From positions 1 to 7,267 of the forward strand of contig CAMEQX010000065.1 of the NCBI GenBank assembly GCA_945933905.1: a stretch of 7,267 nt of DNA, read 5' to 3'. The DNA comes from an uncultured Clostridia bacterium (GTDB lineage Bacteria; Bacillota; Clostridia; Oscillospirales; Ruminococcaceae). Under the pieces are notes generated by a model that searched no databases, was not told the origin of the DNA, and saw only the letters and a list, made by a program, of their open reading frames with translations. Below are positions 1 to 7,263 of the stretch, one piece after another. The position numbers and the translations under genes are program-made. Position 1 is the first letter of the stretch. Every line of letters begins with the position of its first letter.

Positions 1-1834
1 GGCAATACCTTTCGTTTCCGCACTTGTAAAGGCAGGTTCCGCGCCGGGAGCAGCGTATCAGGTCGTACTCCGACGCCTCCACCTGAAGCGCGTCCATATA
101 AAACTTAGTCTCTATAGTACCCGGTGAAAACAGGAATTGATGTGTTGGAATTGAGAAAAGCGGCTTTGTCAATTCGCGGACATTTTCCACAAGAAAGTCC
201 TCAATATTCTGGCTTGCGAGTATCACGGCAGAATCCTTTTTGCGAACGCGTTTCATGAAGTTTCGGATGTATTCAACGGCGGTCAGATTTGTCAGAAACA
301 AATAAAATTCGTCAATACTCGCGACGGTGTTTCCCTTTGTGAGAAGCTGCTCGGACATATATGCGAGGACGTTGAACAACAGCGCATTGCGGATATTTTT
401 GCTTGCCTGAAGCAGTCCTTTAACGCCGAAAGTTATAAATCTGCTGTCGGTTATATTTGTATAACCATTAAAAAATTTGCTCTCCGCACCAACGCAAATC
501 GAGTGCAGTCCAAGGCAGATATTTTGCAGATTTTCGGCGGTATAAAGCCCTTTTTCTTTCGGATTGAACGACTTGTATTCTGCCTCAATCAGCTCGTAAA
601 AATCCGAGAGAATGGGAAAATCTGTCGGTTTCATCACGCTCCAATCCGTGTTGTCGGATATCCCGAATTTCTCGTAGAGCTTTATCAAAAGCAGCTCGAT
701 TGTGTCAATTTCGCGGTCGGAAAAATCCTTGTAGCTGCTGAAAAAATCGCGCAGAAAGCTGATGTGCTGGGACAGCTTTGTCTTGCATTTGAAGGCTTGC
801 GGAGCGTCTTCATCAATGCTTGTCCCATCGTCCCACGACTTTGGTTCAAGCACATTTATGATGTACTCGCCGGACATCAGGTCAATATAAACACCGTCAA
901 CGCCTTTGATGCGCGGCGTCCGTGCCGCGCTTTGGGCGTTGACTTCGCAGCTTCCTGCTGCGCCGCCGAGATTATTCGTTAAATCAGCGTATTCGGTCTC
1001 GGGGTCAAGGCAAATAATGCTCTTTCCACTCTCGCGCAGGTTGGTTAAAATCAGCTTGAGAAGATAGGATTTGCCCTGCCCGGAATTGCCCAGAATAAGC
1101 GCGTTTGCGTTGGTTTTGTCATCGGAACGCTTGTCGAAATCCACGATAATATTGCTCCCGAATTTGTCGCGCCCAAGATAAAAACCGTTCTCATCGGTCT
1201 TTCCCGAGAATGAAAACGGGTAAAGATTTGCAACCGATGACGCGGGGAGAACGCGCTCAAACTGCTCCTTGAACATATTTCGTCCGCTTGGCATAACGCT
1301 CATAAAACCGTGCTGCTGGCGGAGAATAAGCCTGTCCACGTTCAGCTTTGAGCGCACCAATTCGGTCTGCACCTCGGTTTGCAGAATTCGCAGATTGTCC
1401 AGATTATCCGAAATCATTTCGATGAAAACCGCCGTGTGAAGCAGCGGTTCTCGGTTTCGGTGCATATCCGCGGCAAGCTGCGCCACGTCCTGCAGGTTGC
1501 TTTCGGCGGCAACGGTTTGCTGCAAATTGTTGGTGGAAATGCGCTGCATACGGTTTTTGTTGGCGGCATTTGCGATGATTCTTTTTTCCTCGGCAGCGGT
1601 CACAGGTCGCGTGTAAATGCGCAGCGTCACACCGTCTTTTTCGCCGAGATAGCGCAGAATTGCCTGCTCCGAGGTGCTTGTCGGGTACTCGCGCAGCGCC
1701 CAGACGCAGCGAAAAGTGTTCCCGCAAATAAAGTAGTCCGTGTAGAATTTTATCACGGACGGCGCAATCATATCGAGGAAATTTTTCTGCGGTTTGGTCG
1801 CAAAATCCCTCTCGTTCAATCTGTTTTTCTTCAA
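1..1834 (-). CDS. virB4: VirB4-family conjugation ATPase (partial, 3' end outside window)
   Basis: This is the ATPase that powers assembly of the mating channel and substrate transfer at the inner membrane. The reading frame is open from 1834 to the window edge, giving 611 codons. The Walker A motif GNSGQGKS is at residues 249-256, followed by the strand CLDPETEYADL. The Walker B-like strand ASIDEFYLFL has D508 and E509, and a downstream ASQN motif has S541-Q542-N543. The visible end, GTCLYKCGNERY, is typical of the extreme C-terminal part of clostridial VirB4 proteins, so little is missing. The start is TTG: GGAGG lies six bases upstream, no in-frame ATG is nearby, and its first bases overlap the stop of the preceding gene. 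A 22-residue palindrome-encoded segment (residues 292-313) interrupts the otherwise family-like run from YADLTNNLGG to YIDLMSGEYIINVLEPKSW. No stop or frameshift is seen in the frame. The family call is very secure. Confidence 0.95.
   Translation of the reverse strand, partial: MKKNRLNERDFATKPQKNFLDMIAPSVIKFYTDYFICGNTFRCVWALREYPTSTSEQAILRYLGEKDGVTLRIYTRPVTAAEEKRIIANAANKNRMQRISTNNLQQTVAAESNLQDVAQLAADMHRNREPLLHTAVFIEMISDNLDNLRILQTEVQTELVRSKLNVDRLILRQQHGFMSVMPSGRNMFKEQFERVLPASSVANLYPFSFSGKTDENGFYLGRDKFGSNIIVDFDKRSDDKTNANALILGNSGQGKSYLLKLILTNLRESGKSIICLDPETEYADLTNNLGGAAGSCEVNAQSAARTPRIKGVDGVYIDLMSGEYIINVLEPKSWDDGTSIDEDAPQAFKCKTKLSQHISFLRDFFSSYKDFSDREIDTIELLLIKLYEKFGISDNTDWSVMKPTDFPILSDFYELIEAEYKSFNPKEKGLYTAENLQNICLGLHSICVGAESKFFNGYTNITDSRFITFGVKGLLQASKNIRNALLFNVLAYMSEQLLTKGNTVASIDEFYLFLTNLTAVEYIRNFMKRVRKKDSAVILASQNIEDFLVENVRELTKPLFSIPTHQFLFSPGTIETKFYMDALQVEASEYDLIRCSRRGTCLYKCGNERYC
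896..961. repeat. 66-bp palindromic element inserted in frame in virB4
   Basis: The outer arms are GTCAACGCC (896-904) and GGCGTTGAC (935-943), a perfect 9-bp pair. The inner arms are GCGCGGC (911-917) and GCCGCGC (924-930), a perfect 7-bp pair. They are separated by small internal loops (905-910 and 931-934) and a six-base apical loop (918-923). A second small hairpin, GCAGC-TTCCT-GCTGC, abuts it at 947-961. With borders at 896 and 961 the segment is exactly 22 codons, starting and ending on codon boundaries of virB4. The encoded peptide starts AAGSCEVNAQ and ends RIKGVD and matches nothing I know in VirB4. The hairpin is directly visible. That it is a mobile or repeated element, and its exact borders, are inferences because only one copy lies in the window. 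Confidence 0.7.
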
Positions 1835-2868
1835 CTTAATCCTCCAATCGTCTGCTTCATTTCCGGCTCGGGAAACATTTCGCTTTCGGGCAGCAGAAAG
1901 AAGTTGTCGCTGTTCCAGAACGAGATGTAAACGACATCATCTCCGAGCCGAATTTCGCGCTGCTCAAAGCTCTCGCCCCAGCCGTCGGAAAGCTGTCCGG
2001 TGAGCTCTTCAGCAAGGTCAATCAAATCCGCCTTATCCGGCTCCCCGTAAGACTTCACGGCAATCACACCATACAGATTTCCGCCACGATTTTCAACCTG
2101 CGGAAAGGCAGAATACACCTTGCGGTACAGGTGATTGTTGTCGGTAAAAGCAATCAATCCGCGGGTTTTCATATCCTCATCTCTCGAAATATCCGCGTGA
2201 ATTTTTGCGTTGATCTTGGCAGCATAATCGGCGTATTTTTCGGGATTTTCCTCGCACAAATCCGCAGAATAATCCTCGGGTTCGGAAACAATTTTCAGCG
2301 GACAGTACAGCTTGGTTTCGGAAAGCTCGCCCTTAACGGCTACAATCGCGTTGTTTTTTCTTTCAAGAAAACCAATTCTCGGGTGCTTTCGTATTTCCTG
2401 ACAAACCCACTCGTTAAGCAGCTCCAGAGTATGTTTGTCGCCCAGAAATTCGTTTGTGTGAACGCAAAAATCCAACTTGTCGCCGCTGTCCGAAACGCAG
2501 CCTGCAACCCAATTTTTCAAGCATTTTTCGAGTTCCGACAAAGCAGACGTCTGTTCGTGCGCGGCGATAATTCCACTTGCGTTTGGGATAAACTGCGAAT
2601 ATCTCGCGTAATCCGCGCCCTCGGATTTAATCAGCAAACCGTCGCCGCTTTCCCTTCCGACTGCAAGAATACAGTGATTGAGACTGCTCTCAACGCCCAT
2701 CAGCTCGCGGTATTTCCGGATAAAATATTTCTCCCGAAGCGGGTGCTCGACAAGGTTTTTGAACTCGGTTTCGTTCAGCTTAATCACCTTATCCACCACG
2801 CATTTTTCGGGCGAATAACAGTCTGCTTTTCGGTTCAAAACAGCGTTAATTATAAGCCTTTCAGCCAT
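1831..2868 (-). CDS. DUF6329-like protein of the conjugation operon
   Basis: This 345-residue, acidic, probably cytosolic protein has no signal peptide or membrane segment. The N-terminal region (about 1-110; AERLIINAVLNRKADCYSP at the start and YARYSQFIPNASGIIAAHE near residue 90-105) resembles the DUF6329 family as I remember it. The C-terminal part has the block LSDGWGESFEQREI followed by VVYISFW (about residues 293-318), a motif I associate with small proteins of clostridial mobile elements. The function is unknown. The ATG start has AGGTGG seven bases upstream and overlaps the previous stop by eight bases (ATGGCTGA). The stop overlaps the virB4 start, so the gene sits tightly between transfer genes and is probably made with them. 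It could be a regulatory or anti-host-defence accessory rather than a structural part. The family name is moderately sure; the role is not known. Confidence 0.75.
   Translation of the reverse strand: MAERLIINAVLNRKADCYSPEKCVVDKVIKLNETEFKNLVEHPLREKYFIRKYRELMGVESSLNHCILAVGRESGDGLLIKSEGADYARYSQFIPNASGIIAAHEQTSALSELEKCLKNWVAGCVSDSGDKLDFCVHTNEFLGDKHTLELLNEWVCQEIRKHPRIGFLERKNNAIVAVKGELSETKLYCPLKIVSEPEDYSADLCEENPEKYADYAAKINAKIHADISRDEDMKTRGLIAFTDNNHLYRKVYSAFPQVENRGGNLYGVIAVKSYGEPDKADLIDLAEELTGQLSDGWGESFEQREIRLGDDVVYISFWNSDNFFLLPESEMFPEPEMKQTIGGLS
1832..1845 (-). promoter_or_regulatory. Ribosome-binding site and TTG start of virB4
   Basis: GGAGG at 1841-1845 is followed by six bases and the start codon TTG (1834-1832). 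The TTG shares two bases with the TGA stop (1833-1831) of the upstream gene, giving the string TTGA. This decides the virB4 start, because the next in-frame Met is about 20 codons downstream and has no comparable site. The overlap suggests translational coupling of virB4 to the DUF6329-like gene. Confidence 0.8.
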
Positions 2869-3436
2869 TCAAAATCCACCTTTCTCCGTCTGAGTCATCA
2901 AATTTTTCCGTTGTGACATTCTGCTCAAAATATACGGCGATGAGCGTTTTAATATCCTCGCCGTCGTATCGTCTTGCGGAAAAACCATTTTCGCTTAGCG
3001 TTTTTTCAATGCGGTTCAAATAGGAGAAAATTTCCTTGTCCTTAAGCCCGCGAATCCGCACTATAAGCAGAAATTCTCTTGCAGTTGCGGTAAGCGCCTG
3101 AATGTGGTCAAGGTGCTTTTCGTCCTGTTCAAGCAATTTCCGAACAGCCGGATTTTCCTCTTTTTTCGCGAGATTTTTCAAGTGATTTTTGTTGCCGTCA
3201 AAGCTCTCGCGGCTGTTCACGCAGAGTATCTCAATCTCCGTCAAGCCTTTCAGGACGTTCATCAGCGAGTAGATTTTCGCCGACAAACCCGCCTCGGACA
3301 TCACCGAAATATTGCTCGGCTTGACGCTGAAAAAGACCGCCTCATTTGAAGCAGTCTTGAGCGAATATTCGGTTATGCAATCTATTCCGAGGAGCTGACG
3401 GGTGCTCTGATTATTTTGCTGATTCTTTTTCTTCAA
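2861..3436 (-). CDS. Conserved ICE protein resembling a VirB4 N-terminal module
   Basis: This 191-residue soluble protein lies between the PrgI-like gene and the DUF6329-like gene. Visible blocks are ITEYSLKTASNEAVFFSVKPSN (about 21-42), a probable helical middle rich in charged residues (about 73-115), the strand REFLLIVRIRG (about 120-130), a helix with IFSYLNRIEKTLSENGFSARR, and a tail YFEQNVTTEKFDDSDGERW. The strand-helix-strand end, with a 'REF-L-I-R' strand and a terminal 'AVYFEQN' block, recalls the N-terminal domain of TraC/VirB4-type ATPases, but there is no Walker motif. It may be an accessory partner of VirB4; this is inference. I prefer the TTG start at 3436, with GGAGG five bases upstream and a TTGA overlap with the PrgI stop, exactly as at virB4. 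An ATG at 3448 with a weaker AGGA site would add four residues. Confidence 0.8.
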   Translation of the reverse strand: MKKKNQQNNQSTRQLLGIDCITEYSLKTASNEAVFFSVKPSNISVMSEAGLSAKIYSLMNVLKGLTEIEILCVNSRESFDGNKNHLKNLAKKEENPAVRKLLEQDEKHLDHIQALTATAREFLLIVRIRGLKDKEIFSYLNRIEKTLSENGFSARRYDGEDIKTLIAVYFEQNVTTEKFDDSDGERWILNG

Positions 3437-3693
3437 TTTAACCTCCATCTAAATTCCTGCTGTTCCACAAAGAAATACCTCACGGCATATTTGAGGAAAT
3501 CCAGAATACTGGTGTCCTCGAAACGGATAGCGAGAAACGCGTATGCAAACGTAATTACAATCGGGATTGTAAGCCCAATCTGCGACAGCGCAAGCACCGA
3601 AATCAGCGCGCCGATGCCGATTGCCGCGAGGTCTTTCAATCGCCACAAAAACAGCGTCGGCGCGGCTTTGAGGTTCTCCGGATAAATATACAT
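3433..3693 (-). CDS. PrgI-family (VirB3-like) inner-membrane transfer protein
   Basis: This 86-residue protein has two hydrophobic segments (about 20-38 and 40-56) separated by a short turn. It starts MYIYPENLKAAPTLFLWRLKD and ends with an amphipathic tail, LDFLKYAVRYFFVEQQEFRW. Size, two-helix hairpin and position between the TrbL-like gene and virB4 fit the PrgI family, the Gram-positive counterpart of VirB3, which anchors the VirB4 ATPase at the membrane. The ATG start has AAAGGAG five bases upstream. That site immediately follows the TGA of the TrbL-like gene, 11 bases before the start. The frame is open further upstream, but that extension runs through the end of the preceding gene and has no ribosome-binding site. 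The family call is good; direct contact with VirB4 is inferred from the family. Confidence 0.85.
   Translation of the reverse strand: MYIYPENLKAAPTLFLWRLKDLAAIGIGALISVLALSQIGLTIPIVITFAYAFLAIRFEDTSILDFLKYAVRYFFVEQQEFRWRLN
3434..3446 (-). promoter_or_regulatory. Ribosome-binding site and TTG start inside the prgI stop overlap
   Basis: GGAGG (3442-3446) is followed by five bases and TTG (3436-3434), which overlaps the TGA stop (3435-3433) of the PrgI-like gene. The following bases, AAGAAAAA, are the same as after the virB4 TTG. An in-frame ATG at 3448 lies within two bases of the GGAGG and would need a poorer upstream AGGA site, so the TTG is the better-supported start. Confidence 0.6.
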
Positions 3694-3704
3694 TTCTTCT
3701 CCTT

Positions 3705-4523
3705 TCACGCCTTGTGCGTAACCATTCGCGCCAGATGCACCGCCGACTGCGCCGTGTTTATAACGCCGTTTATATTCGGGCGAATTGACGTTTCCAATCC
3801 GAACATTCCCGCAATCCTCGGAATTTCTCCCGCCGCCAAAATTACGCCAAGTCCGAGCAGCCAATAATCCTTAAACAGAATAAGCCCGCACACAAGCATT
3901 ACCGACTGCAAAAACGCCGTCAGACAGGTCGCAATAACCTGTTTTATCCACATGATAAAACCGTCCGTGAAGCCACGCGGTACAGAAAACATATAGAGTG
4001 AACCTACCGCAATTTGTATCAGCAAGATTCCGCCGCGCTTGATGCTTGCGAAGAACACCTTTATAATCGTGTACCCCATCATAATCGTTATGAGTATCGA
4101 CAAAAGCGGGCCGAACATCAGGCTTTCAACGACTTTTAGGCAGGATTCCGCGAGAGTGCTGCCCTCGAGGAAAATAAGGCTTGTCATATCGTCGCTCATT
4201 CCGAACTGCAGTTTTACCGCGAGTCCGTAGAGCTGCACGGGAACGCTGCAGAACAAATCCACCGCGAAAAATCCCTTGATTATATTCAGCGCGAGAGCCT
4301 TCGCGTCACCGCGTCCGTTCTGCGATTCAATGGCAAATTCAAACAGCGCCACAACTATTCCCACAACAAAAAGCGCCCAGCCCAGATTGCTGAAAAGCTG
4401 CACGATTTGCTTTACCCATGGCAGCCCGAACAAATCCACGCCCAACGCGTTCATAGCGGCAAAAAATTCGCCCAGCATTTTGACGACCTGCTGATAAATC
4501 CAGTCCGTGATGTAGTCGAACAT
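3705..4523 (-). CDS. TrbL/VirB6-like polytopic conjugation channel protein
   Basis: This 272-residue integral membrane protein has about six hydrophobic segments (roughly 45-66, 81-103, 137-160, 164-182, 196-217 and 219-235). The segment IKRGGILLIQIAVGSLYMFSVPRG (161-184), with GFTDGFIMWIKQV after it, is the hallmark block of the TrbL-like channel proteins of clostridial ICEs (DUF6045-type, from memory). Such proteins form the inner-membrane pore of the secretion system, like VirB6/TrbL. An ends-in block AAGEIPRIAGMFGLETSIRPN also matches that group. I chose the ATG at 4523 because it begins the family-like MFDYITDWIY and has GGTGAG eight bases upstream. In-frame GTG (4532), TTG (4535) and an ATT at 4562 are alternatives, and the ATT has by far the best Shine-Dalgarno site. 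The gene follows the DUF3852 gene by 78 bases. Confidence 0.88.
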   Translation of the reverse strand: MFDYITDWIYQQVVKMLGEFFAAMNALGVDLFGLPWVKQIVQLFSNLGWALFVVGIVVALFEFAIESQNGRGDAKALALNIIKGFFAVDLFCSVPVQLYGLAVKLQFGMSDDMTSLIFLEGSTLAESCLKVVESLMFGPLLSILITIMMGYTIIKVFFASIKRGGILLIQIAVGSLYMFSVPRGFTDGFIMWIKQVIATCLTAFLQSVMLVCGLILFKDYWLLGLGVILAAGEIPRIAGMFGLETSIRPNINGVINTAQSAVHLARMVTHKA

Positions 4524-4559
4524 TTTGCTCACCAAATCCGCGCCAACATCAAAGTAATA

Positions 4560-4575
4560 AATACTATCACCTCCC
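4560..4575 (-). promoter_or_regulatory. Strong Shine-Dalgarno with in-frame ATT upstream of the TrbL-like gene
   Basis: GGGAGGTG (4568-4575) is the strongest ribosome-binding site in the neighbourhood. The codon at ideal spacing (seven bases after GGAGG) is ATT (4562-4560), which is in frame with the TrbL-like gene and would add 13 residues. No ATG, GTG or TTG lies at that distance in this frame. A six-codon mini-ORF, MLARIW (4549-4529), starts 18 bases after the GGAGG and ends five bases before the ATG of the TrbL-like gene. Confidence 0.5.
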
Positions 4576-4601
4576 GAAACGACAGCGCACGTTTTCGCGA
4601 A

Positions 4602-4940
4602 TCAGACGTTGATTATCGTCCAAACATAGGTCGGCGCAGTCAGCGTGAACACCAGACACGCGAAAAGTATCGCGGGCGCAGTCCATTCAAAGTGACCGGA
4701 TTTGCGGTAATCGAAATACGCGAGTCCGAGTTTTGCGAAGAAAAACACCGCCAGAACAACGTCAATTATCGGGAAAACAACGTTGTTCACGACCTGTTTT
4801 ATCTGCGTTGACGCGGTATTCCAAGTGCCCTCGATTGCACCCGCAACATCGCCCTCGGCAAAGGCGCAGAGCGACATCGCGGACATAACGATAATTGAAA
4901 TTACAGAAGAGCTAATTATCTTTGAAAACTTAATTTTCAT
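4602..4940 (-). CDS. DUF3852 small membrane protein, VirB2/TrbC pilin-like
   Basis: This 112-residue protein has a signal peptide (about 1-28: KIKFSK, a hydrophobic run, then CAFA before EGD), a short soluble loop, and two hydrophobic segments (about 52-72 and 86-105). The block AYFDYRKSGHFEWTAPAILFACLVFTLTAP is characteristic of DUF3852 proteins of Firmicutes conjugative elements. The architecture (signal peptide plus two helices, with a short basic loop between them) is that of VirB2/TrbC pilins, so it is probably the pilus-like or channel small subunit; that role is inference. The ATG start has GAAAGG nine bases upstream, 27 bases after the stop of the large exported protein. Its position directly before the TrbL-like gene supports a structural role. 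The DUF assignment is confident; the pilin role is moderately so. Confidence 0.88.
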   Translation of the reverse strand: MKIKFSKIISSSVISIIVMSAMSLCAFAEGDVAGAIEGTWNTASTQIKQVVNNVVFPIIDVVLAVFFFAKLGLAYFDYRKSGHFEWTAPAILFACLVFTLTAPTYVWTIINV

Positions 4941-6690: not shown

Positions 6691-7263
6691 TTATCCGAAA
6701 CTGCCTATTTTATTGCCGTTTTCGTACATATCCGGCGCAGGTTCGCCGCTTCCGCCGCCGCCCTCATCGACAACCCAGCCGAAGCCGTTGATGTAGATTT
6801 TACCGTCTTTGGTGTCGCCGTGTTTCGGGGTATCCGAGGGAAATTCTGTCTGCTGCGGCTCAGTCTGCTCGGGTTTGTAGATTGGCTCTGCATCAGGGTT
6901 TGTGAGCATATCCTCGTCCTCAATTTCAGGAGGAGCGGGCGGCGCGTTTTCCTCTGTTTCCGGTTCGGTTTAGGGAAAATTCTGCTCAATTTCAATACCG
7001 CCGCTTTCGATAAATTCCGCATGAATTTCGTCCGGATTTTTAGCGCTGTTGTCATGCGCAGTTTCGGATTTTTCAGACCTCGTTTCCTCGTGTTTCGCGC
7101 AAGGGATTTCCACGCTGATATGCGCCTCGGAATTTGACTCGGGAGCGTTCGCCGCAAGCTCCTTATCATCGCTCGCAAACCGCGCTGCAATGAGGATTGC
7201 AAGCGCTGCACAAAGTACAGTTCCGCCGCCTGCAGCAAGGGTTCTTTTCGTTTTCATTGTCAT
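6691..7263 (-). pseudogene. DUF6550-like membrane-anchored protein broken by an in-frame TAA
   Basis: One reading frame runs from ATG 7263 (or 7257) to the TGA/TAA-type stop at 6691 and is broken once, by TAA at 6972-6970 (codon 98). The N-terminal half (97 residues) is MTMKTKRTLA, a hydrophobic helix (about 13-27), then an acidic, unstructured stretch. The C-terminal half in the same frame reads TEPETEENAPP, then LTNPDAEPIYKPEQTEPQQ and a conserved end with GKIYINGFGWV and DMYENGNKIG, which I recognise from DUF6550 proteins of clostridial ICEs. A single-base change would restore the frame, for example GAA (Glu) to TAA, which would fit the acidic TEPETEE repeat. The role of the family is unknown; it is probably an envelope-anchored accessory of the transfer operon. 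A sequencing error is an alternative to a true nonsense mutation. The gene's ribosome-binding site lies outside the window. Confidence 0.75.

Follow-up and report, generated by a model that had tools for sequence, protein, structure and literature searches.

Palindromic repeats of Rickettsia, the Rickettsia palindromic elements (RPE), were reportedly described by Ogata et al. in 2000 and 2002. Genome decay in Rickettsia could explain the survival of palindromes in these bacteria. In the passages devoted to them in three papers (PMC10969869, PMC2229807, PMC3767692), RPE are dispersed palindromes found both between genes and in frame within conserved genes; an RPE-bearing guanylate kinase is stated there to be translated and active (PMC2229807), and protein-coding palindromes are said to be best known from Rickettsia (PMC10969869). 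Intragenic REPs, tagged by GTAG or CGTC, form another comparable group. The relevant passages of PMC3733652 report that they encode 20-30 residues, that repair and tRNA synthetase genes are among their targets, and that the CGTC class of REPs has no dedicated transposase. Words beginning with Clostridi or Firmicutes do not occur in the main text of that paper. Finally, bacterial MITEs with copies fused in frame, namely ERIC, Correia and RU, are covered in part of PMC2229807.

The repeat described here resides in a gene for a VirB4-type conjugation ATPase of an uncultured Clostridia bacterium, within a stretch of 7,267 nucleotides (contig CAMEQX010000065.1), referred to below as the window. Like RPE, it is a dispersed palindrome, present between genes and in frame in unrelated conserved genes, and open in the frame used. 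It differs from RPE as described in size (66-69 bp versus about 100-150 bp), in design (two adjacent hairpins with similar loops), in its additional presence in two phage capsid genes, and in its carriers, which are Clostridia (Oscillospiraceae, Ruminococcaceae, Ruminiclostridium and uncultured MAGs) instead of Rickettsiales. The analogy with Rickettsia drawn in the initial annotation applies to the way of working and not to family membership. With REPs the repeat shares short hairpins, dimers, intragenic copies and targets among repair and tRNA synthetase genes, whereas it has no constant end tetranucleotide (by eye, the ends of the copies examined vary) and its unit is a fixed pair of hairpins. 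Like the MITEs it is a small, apparently non-autonomous repeat fused in frame, but its lone module comes without a demonstrated terminal repeat and target duplication; long inverted repeats surround some of the larger intergenic copies. Titles and abstracts found by literature searches, in which phage genes were not asked about, describe no such element in Clostridia. The kind of element is known; as far as these searches show, the family, the two-hairpin design and the host group are new.

The VirB4 insert and its two hairpins

The VirB4 gene occupies positions 2..1834 of the window on the minus strand, as an ORF of 611 codons that is open at the window end. Its product matches the Pfam families TraG P-loop, AAA_10 and DUF87 and the PDB entry 4ag5. 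DNA and protein alignments delimit within it an insert of 69 bp, or 23 codons (AAGSCEVNAQSAARTPRIKGVDG), at 893..961 on the minus strand, which carries the hairpin element; according to the ORF translation the reading frame stays open throughout. The initial annotation had described an in-frame compound palindrome of 66 bp encoding 22 residues. The open frame and the multiple of three were borne out, and the size had to be revised to 69 bp and 23 codons by comparison with empty sites.

Read 5' to 3' on the minus strand, the element starts with hairpin A (946..962), which has a 6-bp stem (957-962 with 946-951) and a 5-base loop AGGAA (952-956), and which is defined by folding and by covariation of helix 1. 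Two bases further lies hairpin B/C (896..943), defined by folding and by covariation of helices 2 and 3. Its 9-bp outer stem (935-943 with 896-904) leads to an internal loop, with CAAA (931-934) opposite ATCAAA (905-910), and its 7-bp inner stem (924-930 with 911-917) is closed by the loop ACGGAC (918-923). The 9-bp and 7-bp arms noted at the outset are thus exact, and the palindrome is indeed compound; its description was incomplete, however, because the stem of hairpin A, and with it a second hairpin, had been overlooked. The folding energy of the 68-nt segment is -40.3 kcal/mol, compared with -22.5 (sd 2.9) for shuffled sequences (z -6.0; none of 200 as good).

The same structure is conserved among copies of the repeat. 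In a first alignment of 96 matches (88 distinct rows), 98.5% of the stem cells are paired and 20 of the 21 pairs have changed on both sides; none of 500 shuffles reached the observed scores. A second alignment of 85 matches (74 distinct) has 97.3% of its stem cells paired. Its count of pairs with changes on both sides was reached by 13 of 500 shuffles, its level of pairing by none of 500. In both alignments, versions slid out of register gave 20-49%. Both alignments were fitted to the same model whose pairs they test, which favours the model. Folded on their own, five copies all adopt the two-hairpin architecture; inclusion of longer flanks alters the fold near hairpin A in some copies. By eye the loops are alike, with mostly A(C/G)GA(T/C/A) in hairpin A and A(C/A/T)GGA(C/T) in the inner loop, so the stems vary by compensatory change while the loops stay similar. 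In one genome the inner loop of two neighbouring copies (L100 623-708 and 743-828, G036:C84) is enlarged by 20 bases and the stems are still paired.

An RNA selected for folding should keep G-U over A-C mispairs. Among 3104 cells from 153 distinct copies, G-T and A-C mispairs number 37 and 36, respectively. This equality indicates no RNA wobble preference, and we therefore read the palindrome as being maintained at the DNA level, either because hairpins able to move are selected or because one arm serves to repair its partner.

Distribution of the repeat

In the host genome (a 1.84 Mb draft, 73.5% complete), copies 83% identical over 53 bases are found on contigs C96 and C255, and the exact loop pattern occurs six times, compared with none for the reversed control. 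In another genome, G018, the corresponding figures are 25 and 1. A covariance model built from six copies gave at least seven matches in the host at E<=0.01, and at least one in 37 of the 43 genomes of the genus. At this cut-off the highest counts were at least 66 in G011, at least 44 in G018 and at least 23 in G014; the model found no match in G002, G005, G007, G010, G023 and G030. All the genus counts are lower bounds, as the filters were strict and at most 120 candidates per genome were scored. A repeat with further copies in the host and related genomes had been suspected from the window alone, and such copies do exist, some of them intergenic and others inside genes without a shift of frame. 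The repeat is dispersed, and this distribution makes a strong case that it has spread.

Outside the genus the repeat is less widely seen. In an order-wide sample of 295 genomes, for which the listing gives 17 scored candidates, matches at E<=0.001 came from the host and from three members of a single further genus of its family. A pattern scan of named genomes returned at least 117 stretches, and among the 80 listed there were 57 model matches at E<=0.001. With one exception, L220, these 57 come from records of Oscillospiraceae, Ruminococcaceae, Ruminiclostridium or uncultured Clostridia. L220, from a Bacteroidales MAG, and the similar L204 (28.2 bits) have one shared context and no two-hairpin fold, and were treated as chance matches. 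Matches to the 12-base loop pattern outside the genus, among the loci examined, likewise look like chance codons. In IMG/VR, two of the five contigs with the loop pattern also have model matches (two in L405 and one in L401). A plasmid search gave no element match.

In genes, the module occurs alone, in short tandems, or beside further hairpin-like repeats (L278, L310, L292). Between genes it lies, in several genomes, within longer repeats that have inverted repeats of their own and differ between the groups compared. Intergenic copies also form head-to-head pairs. One arrangement, with head-to-head elements 47 bases apart, is common to two genomes (L002 at about 1000-1300, G000:C255; L037 at 1482-1662, G016:C13), and in L002 the outer flanks of the pair both end in GGTTTTTAGAG.

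In-frame insertions and empty sites

Of the model hits, 173 have distinct flanks, and 27 of these are bordered on each side by 90 or more open codons of one strand. For 23 of the 27 the best pair of frames is an in-frame one. Among these 23, L043 and L310 are represented by two hits apiece, L108 is uncertain, and L284 had its best frame pair on the wrong strand, with a stop, although its real gene (GlmS, minus strand) is in frame and open. The other four have open stretches in different frames on their two sides. By eye, three of them (L315, L113 and L304) resemble spacers that precede the start of a gene, and in L128 no gene could be recognised. Merging of shared sites, exclusion of L108 (tandem copies with an upstream frame of 76-98 codons), and inclusion of L030, L131 and L122, near gene or contig ends, and of the viral contig L405 result in 21 separate in-frame gene insertions, all open through the insert. 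No clear frame-shifting insertion within a gene was seen in this search, which by its use of long open frames favours in-frame copies.

The genes are named by best family match, and several cut ORFs fall under the whole-protein cut-off of the family. Besides VirB4 (the window and G031), they encode PurD, PurL, MetK and GlmS, the tRNA synthetases ValS and LeuS, RecG of G014 (two tandem units) and RecG of G027 (the same site), V-ATPase subunit B, a sensor histidine kinase, two ABC transporters, a MobL relaxase, a Helicase_C protein, an ApbE protein, a phage minor capsid protein, and a phage capsid protein on the IMG/VR contig. In these the element is in the sense orientation (18 insertions). Three insertions are antisense: in an RlmD-type methyltransferase, in a C5 DNA methylase (two genomes) and in an N6 DNA methylase gene (two genomes).

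The net insert length is 69 bp in VirB4 and 66 bp in PurD. In sequence alignments with PDB entries the insert is extra in PurD, MetK, RecG, V-ATPase B, LeuS and VirB4. In PurD, V-ATPase B and VirB4 the template residues on its two sides are adjacent or overlap, in RecG it stands opposite four unaligned template residues, and in MetK and LeuS the gap is looser. These alignments predict that the insert adds a loop of about 22-23 residues to the host protein. A structure model of VirB4, built with 24 similar sequences, has a mean pLDDT of 36, too poor to place the loop.

One sense frame predominates. The inner loop is read as (T/M/Q)-(D/E)-(A/V) in 16 of the 18 sense insertions, the exceptions being the window and L293; P is 1.7e-6 on the assumption of equal use of the three sense frames and of independent events. 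Of 136 other copies, 108, 106 and 91 are open in the respective sense frames, whose translations have a hydrophilic average (GRAVY -1.38 to -0.95). The antisense frames of these copies, open in 94, 112 and 118 cases, are not hydrophilic (GRAVY +0.09 to +0.52). The frame bias fits selection on the peptide or a target preference for glycine codons.

Comparison of filled and empty sites shows that the stretch is an insert. VirB4 is matched at E<=1e-50 in 15 of the 43 genus genomes. The DNA alignment, which left out partial matches (for example in G029, G004 and other contigs of G015), comprised 17 loci representing 14 distinct places, three loci being second views. The insert is absent from 13 of these places and present in one, G031:C4; the same genome also has an empty VirB4 copy on contig C10. 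Empty sites mostly read NLGG-CFIDLMSG and filled ones NLGG-[23 residues]-VYIDLMSG. In the best DNA alignment the insert consists of 68 bases plus one base nearby, so on grounds of parsimony a one-base change may have helped the insertion to stay in frame. In a search of 5.8 billion proteins, 7993 were scored; among the best 120 VirB4 homologues listed, 12 have the 23-residue insert and 108 do not. This agrees with the original observation of extra residues between two normally adjacent VirB4 blocks. Two of the homologues (P0084 and P0090) have a different extra segment of about 11-12 residues after residue ~332, near the site of the 23-residue insert.

Two other genes gave similar pictures. 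RecG is matched in all 43 genomes (in G029 only by an Mfd-like protein, in G033 split), and the 41 readable genomes comprise 39 empty and 2 filled sites. For PurD, both flanks match in 34 genomes, in every one of which they are 66 bases closer together than in G025; the remaining genomes have a single flank, only element copies, or no match. The PurD flank matches overlap by 5 bases in several genomes, in line with a CGGCG repeat on both sides of the G025 insert. Direct repeats of at least 4 bases are present at 9 of the 19 in-gene sites examined, and their sequence, length and spacing differ. A constant target-site duplication was not found at these 19 sites, those other than PurD having different short repeats or none. 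GG adjoins many of the in-gene insertion sites, which is a lead to the target and no more.

Probable mobility and alternative explanations

The above observations establish a repeat family with two hairpins and compensatory stems, filled and empty sites, and 21 in-frame insertions. In the reading that we consider probable, the VirB4 insert is a copy of this dispersed hairpin repeat, which is likely a non-autonomous mobile element and whose copies, where they are in frame and lack a stop, are predicted to be translated. A protein supplied in trans would recognise the hairpins and move them; recognition as DNA is suggested because the stems are free and the loops alike. Insertion would be scattered over sites, and purifying selection would presumably remove frame-shifting copies from genes. 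The in-frame copies may then persist as tolerated loops, with the peptide made and probably located at the protein surface. Three candidate mobilisers were considered. The Y1 transposase (PF01797) is present in 9 of the 43 genomes, reverse transcriptase in 17, and TnpB in 8, in 6 of them over the cut-off. By eye, none of the three follows copy number across these genomes, and G011 (at least 66 matches; 86% complete) has none of them. Their role as mobilisers is thus not supported.

Other explanations have to be weighed against this one. The insert could be an ordinary variable loop of VirB4, as it is located between two strands, at a point open to variation among homologues; this is practically untenable, being refuted by the empty genus sites and homologues and by the same element in unrelated genes. 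The hairpins could instead represent a structured mRNA element, regulatory, spliced out or bypassed by ribosomes, whose peptide is never made. In its favour are the pair of hairpins whose loops resemble each other, the strong covariation and the many intergenic copies. We nevertheless consider it very unlikely: Rfam gave no match at E<=1 for five sources (the window, L002, L003, L005 and L007), copies lie in genes in both orientations, and the two kinds of mispair are equally frequent. Moreover, an insert that is removed or bypassed could do without an open frame and could have any length, yet all 21 insertions are open and measure a multiple of three, an argument biased by the fact that open frames were what was looked for.

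The remaining alternatives concern how the copies multiply. The repeat might be of the REP type, moved by a RAYT (Y1 tyrosine transposase), as its short hairpins, head-to-head pairs and intragenic copies resemble REPs as portrayed in the relevant passages of PMC3733652. Against this, G018, G011 and G014, the richest genomes, have no Y1 transposase match, and the copies examined by eye have no constant GTAG or CGTC end; a RAYT-driven origin is accordingly very improbable. Multiplication could also proceed without any transposase, through template switching and through recombination from one hairpin to another, with arm repair keeping the stems paired. This would accommodate the failure to find a mobiliser among the three families tested, the tandem copies of L043 and L108, and the equal mispair counts, which fit correction of the arms at the DNA level. 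Single copies at unrelated sites in unrelated genes, empty in relatives, are hard to produce without a dedicated insertion step, however, and arm repair, which leaves loops untouched, would not account for how alike they are. This mechanism therefore appears unlikely.

A mobile element with translated in-frame copies remains the preferred reading. It is possible, and proposed here tentatively, that the repeat represents a family of its own among the protein-coding mobile palindromes, the first to come from Clostridia and their phages. It would be a two-hairpin DNA moved by an enzyme, and its sense strand would have been moulded so as to encode, in one preferred frame, a soluble and portable loop with which it can reside in essential enzymes. 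The genomes of these Clostridia are of ordinary size (1.8-3.5 Mb). If the reading is true, it would show that selfish DNA can repeatedly give housekeeping proteins an entire additional loop in genomes that are not in decay, in this case in tRNA synthetases, purine enzymes, MetK, GlmS, RecG and the V-ATPase of Clostridia. Since copies number in the dozens, sites are filled in some relatives and empty in others, and the structural code is clear, both the movement of the element and its tolerance by proteins become testable. Annotation and structure prediction should take the element into account.

As for the surroundings of the VirB4 gene, genes for DUF6329, TrbL_5 and DUF3852 proteins are adjacent to it (window 1831-4940), a neighbourhood consistent with an integrative conjugative element. 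Further along the window, around 6910-6972, two ORFs of the minus strand, 6691-6909 and 6970-7263, follow one another head to tail on either side of a stop codon (6970-6972), and could be a single interrupted gene.
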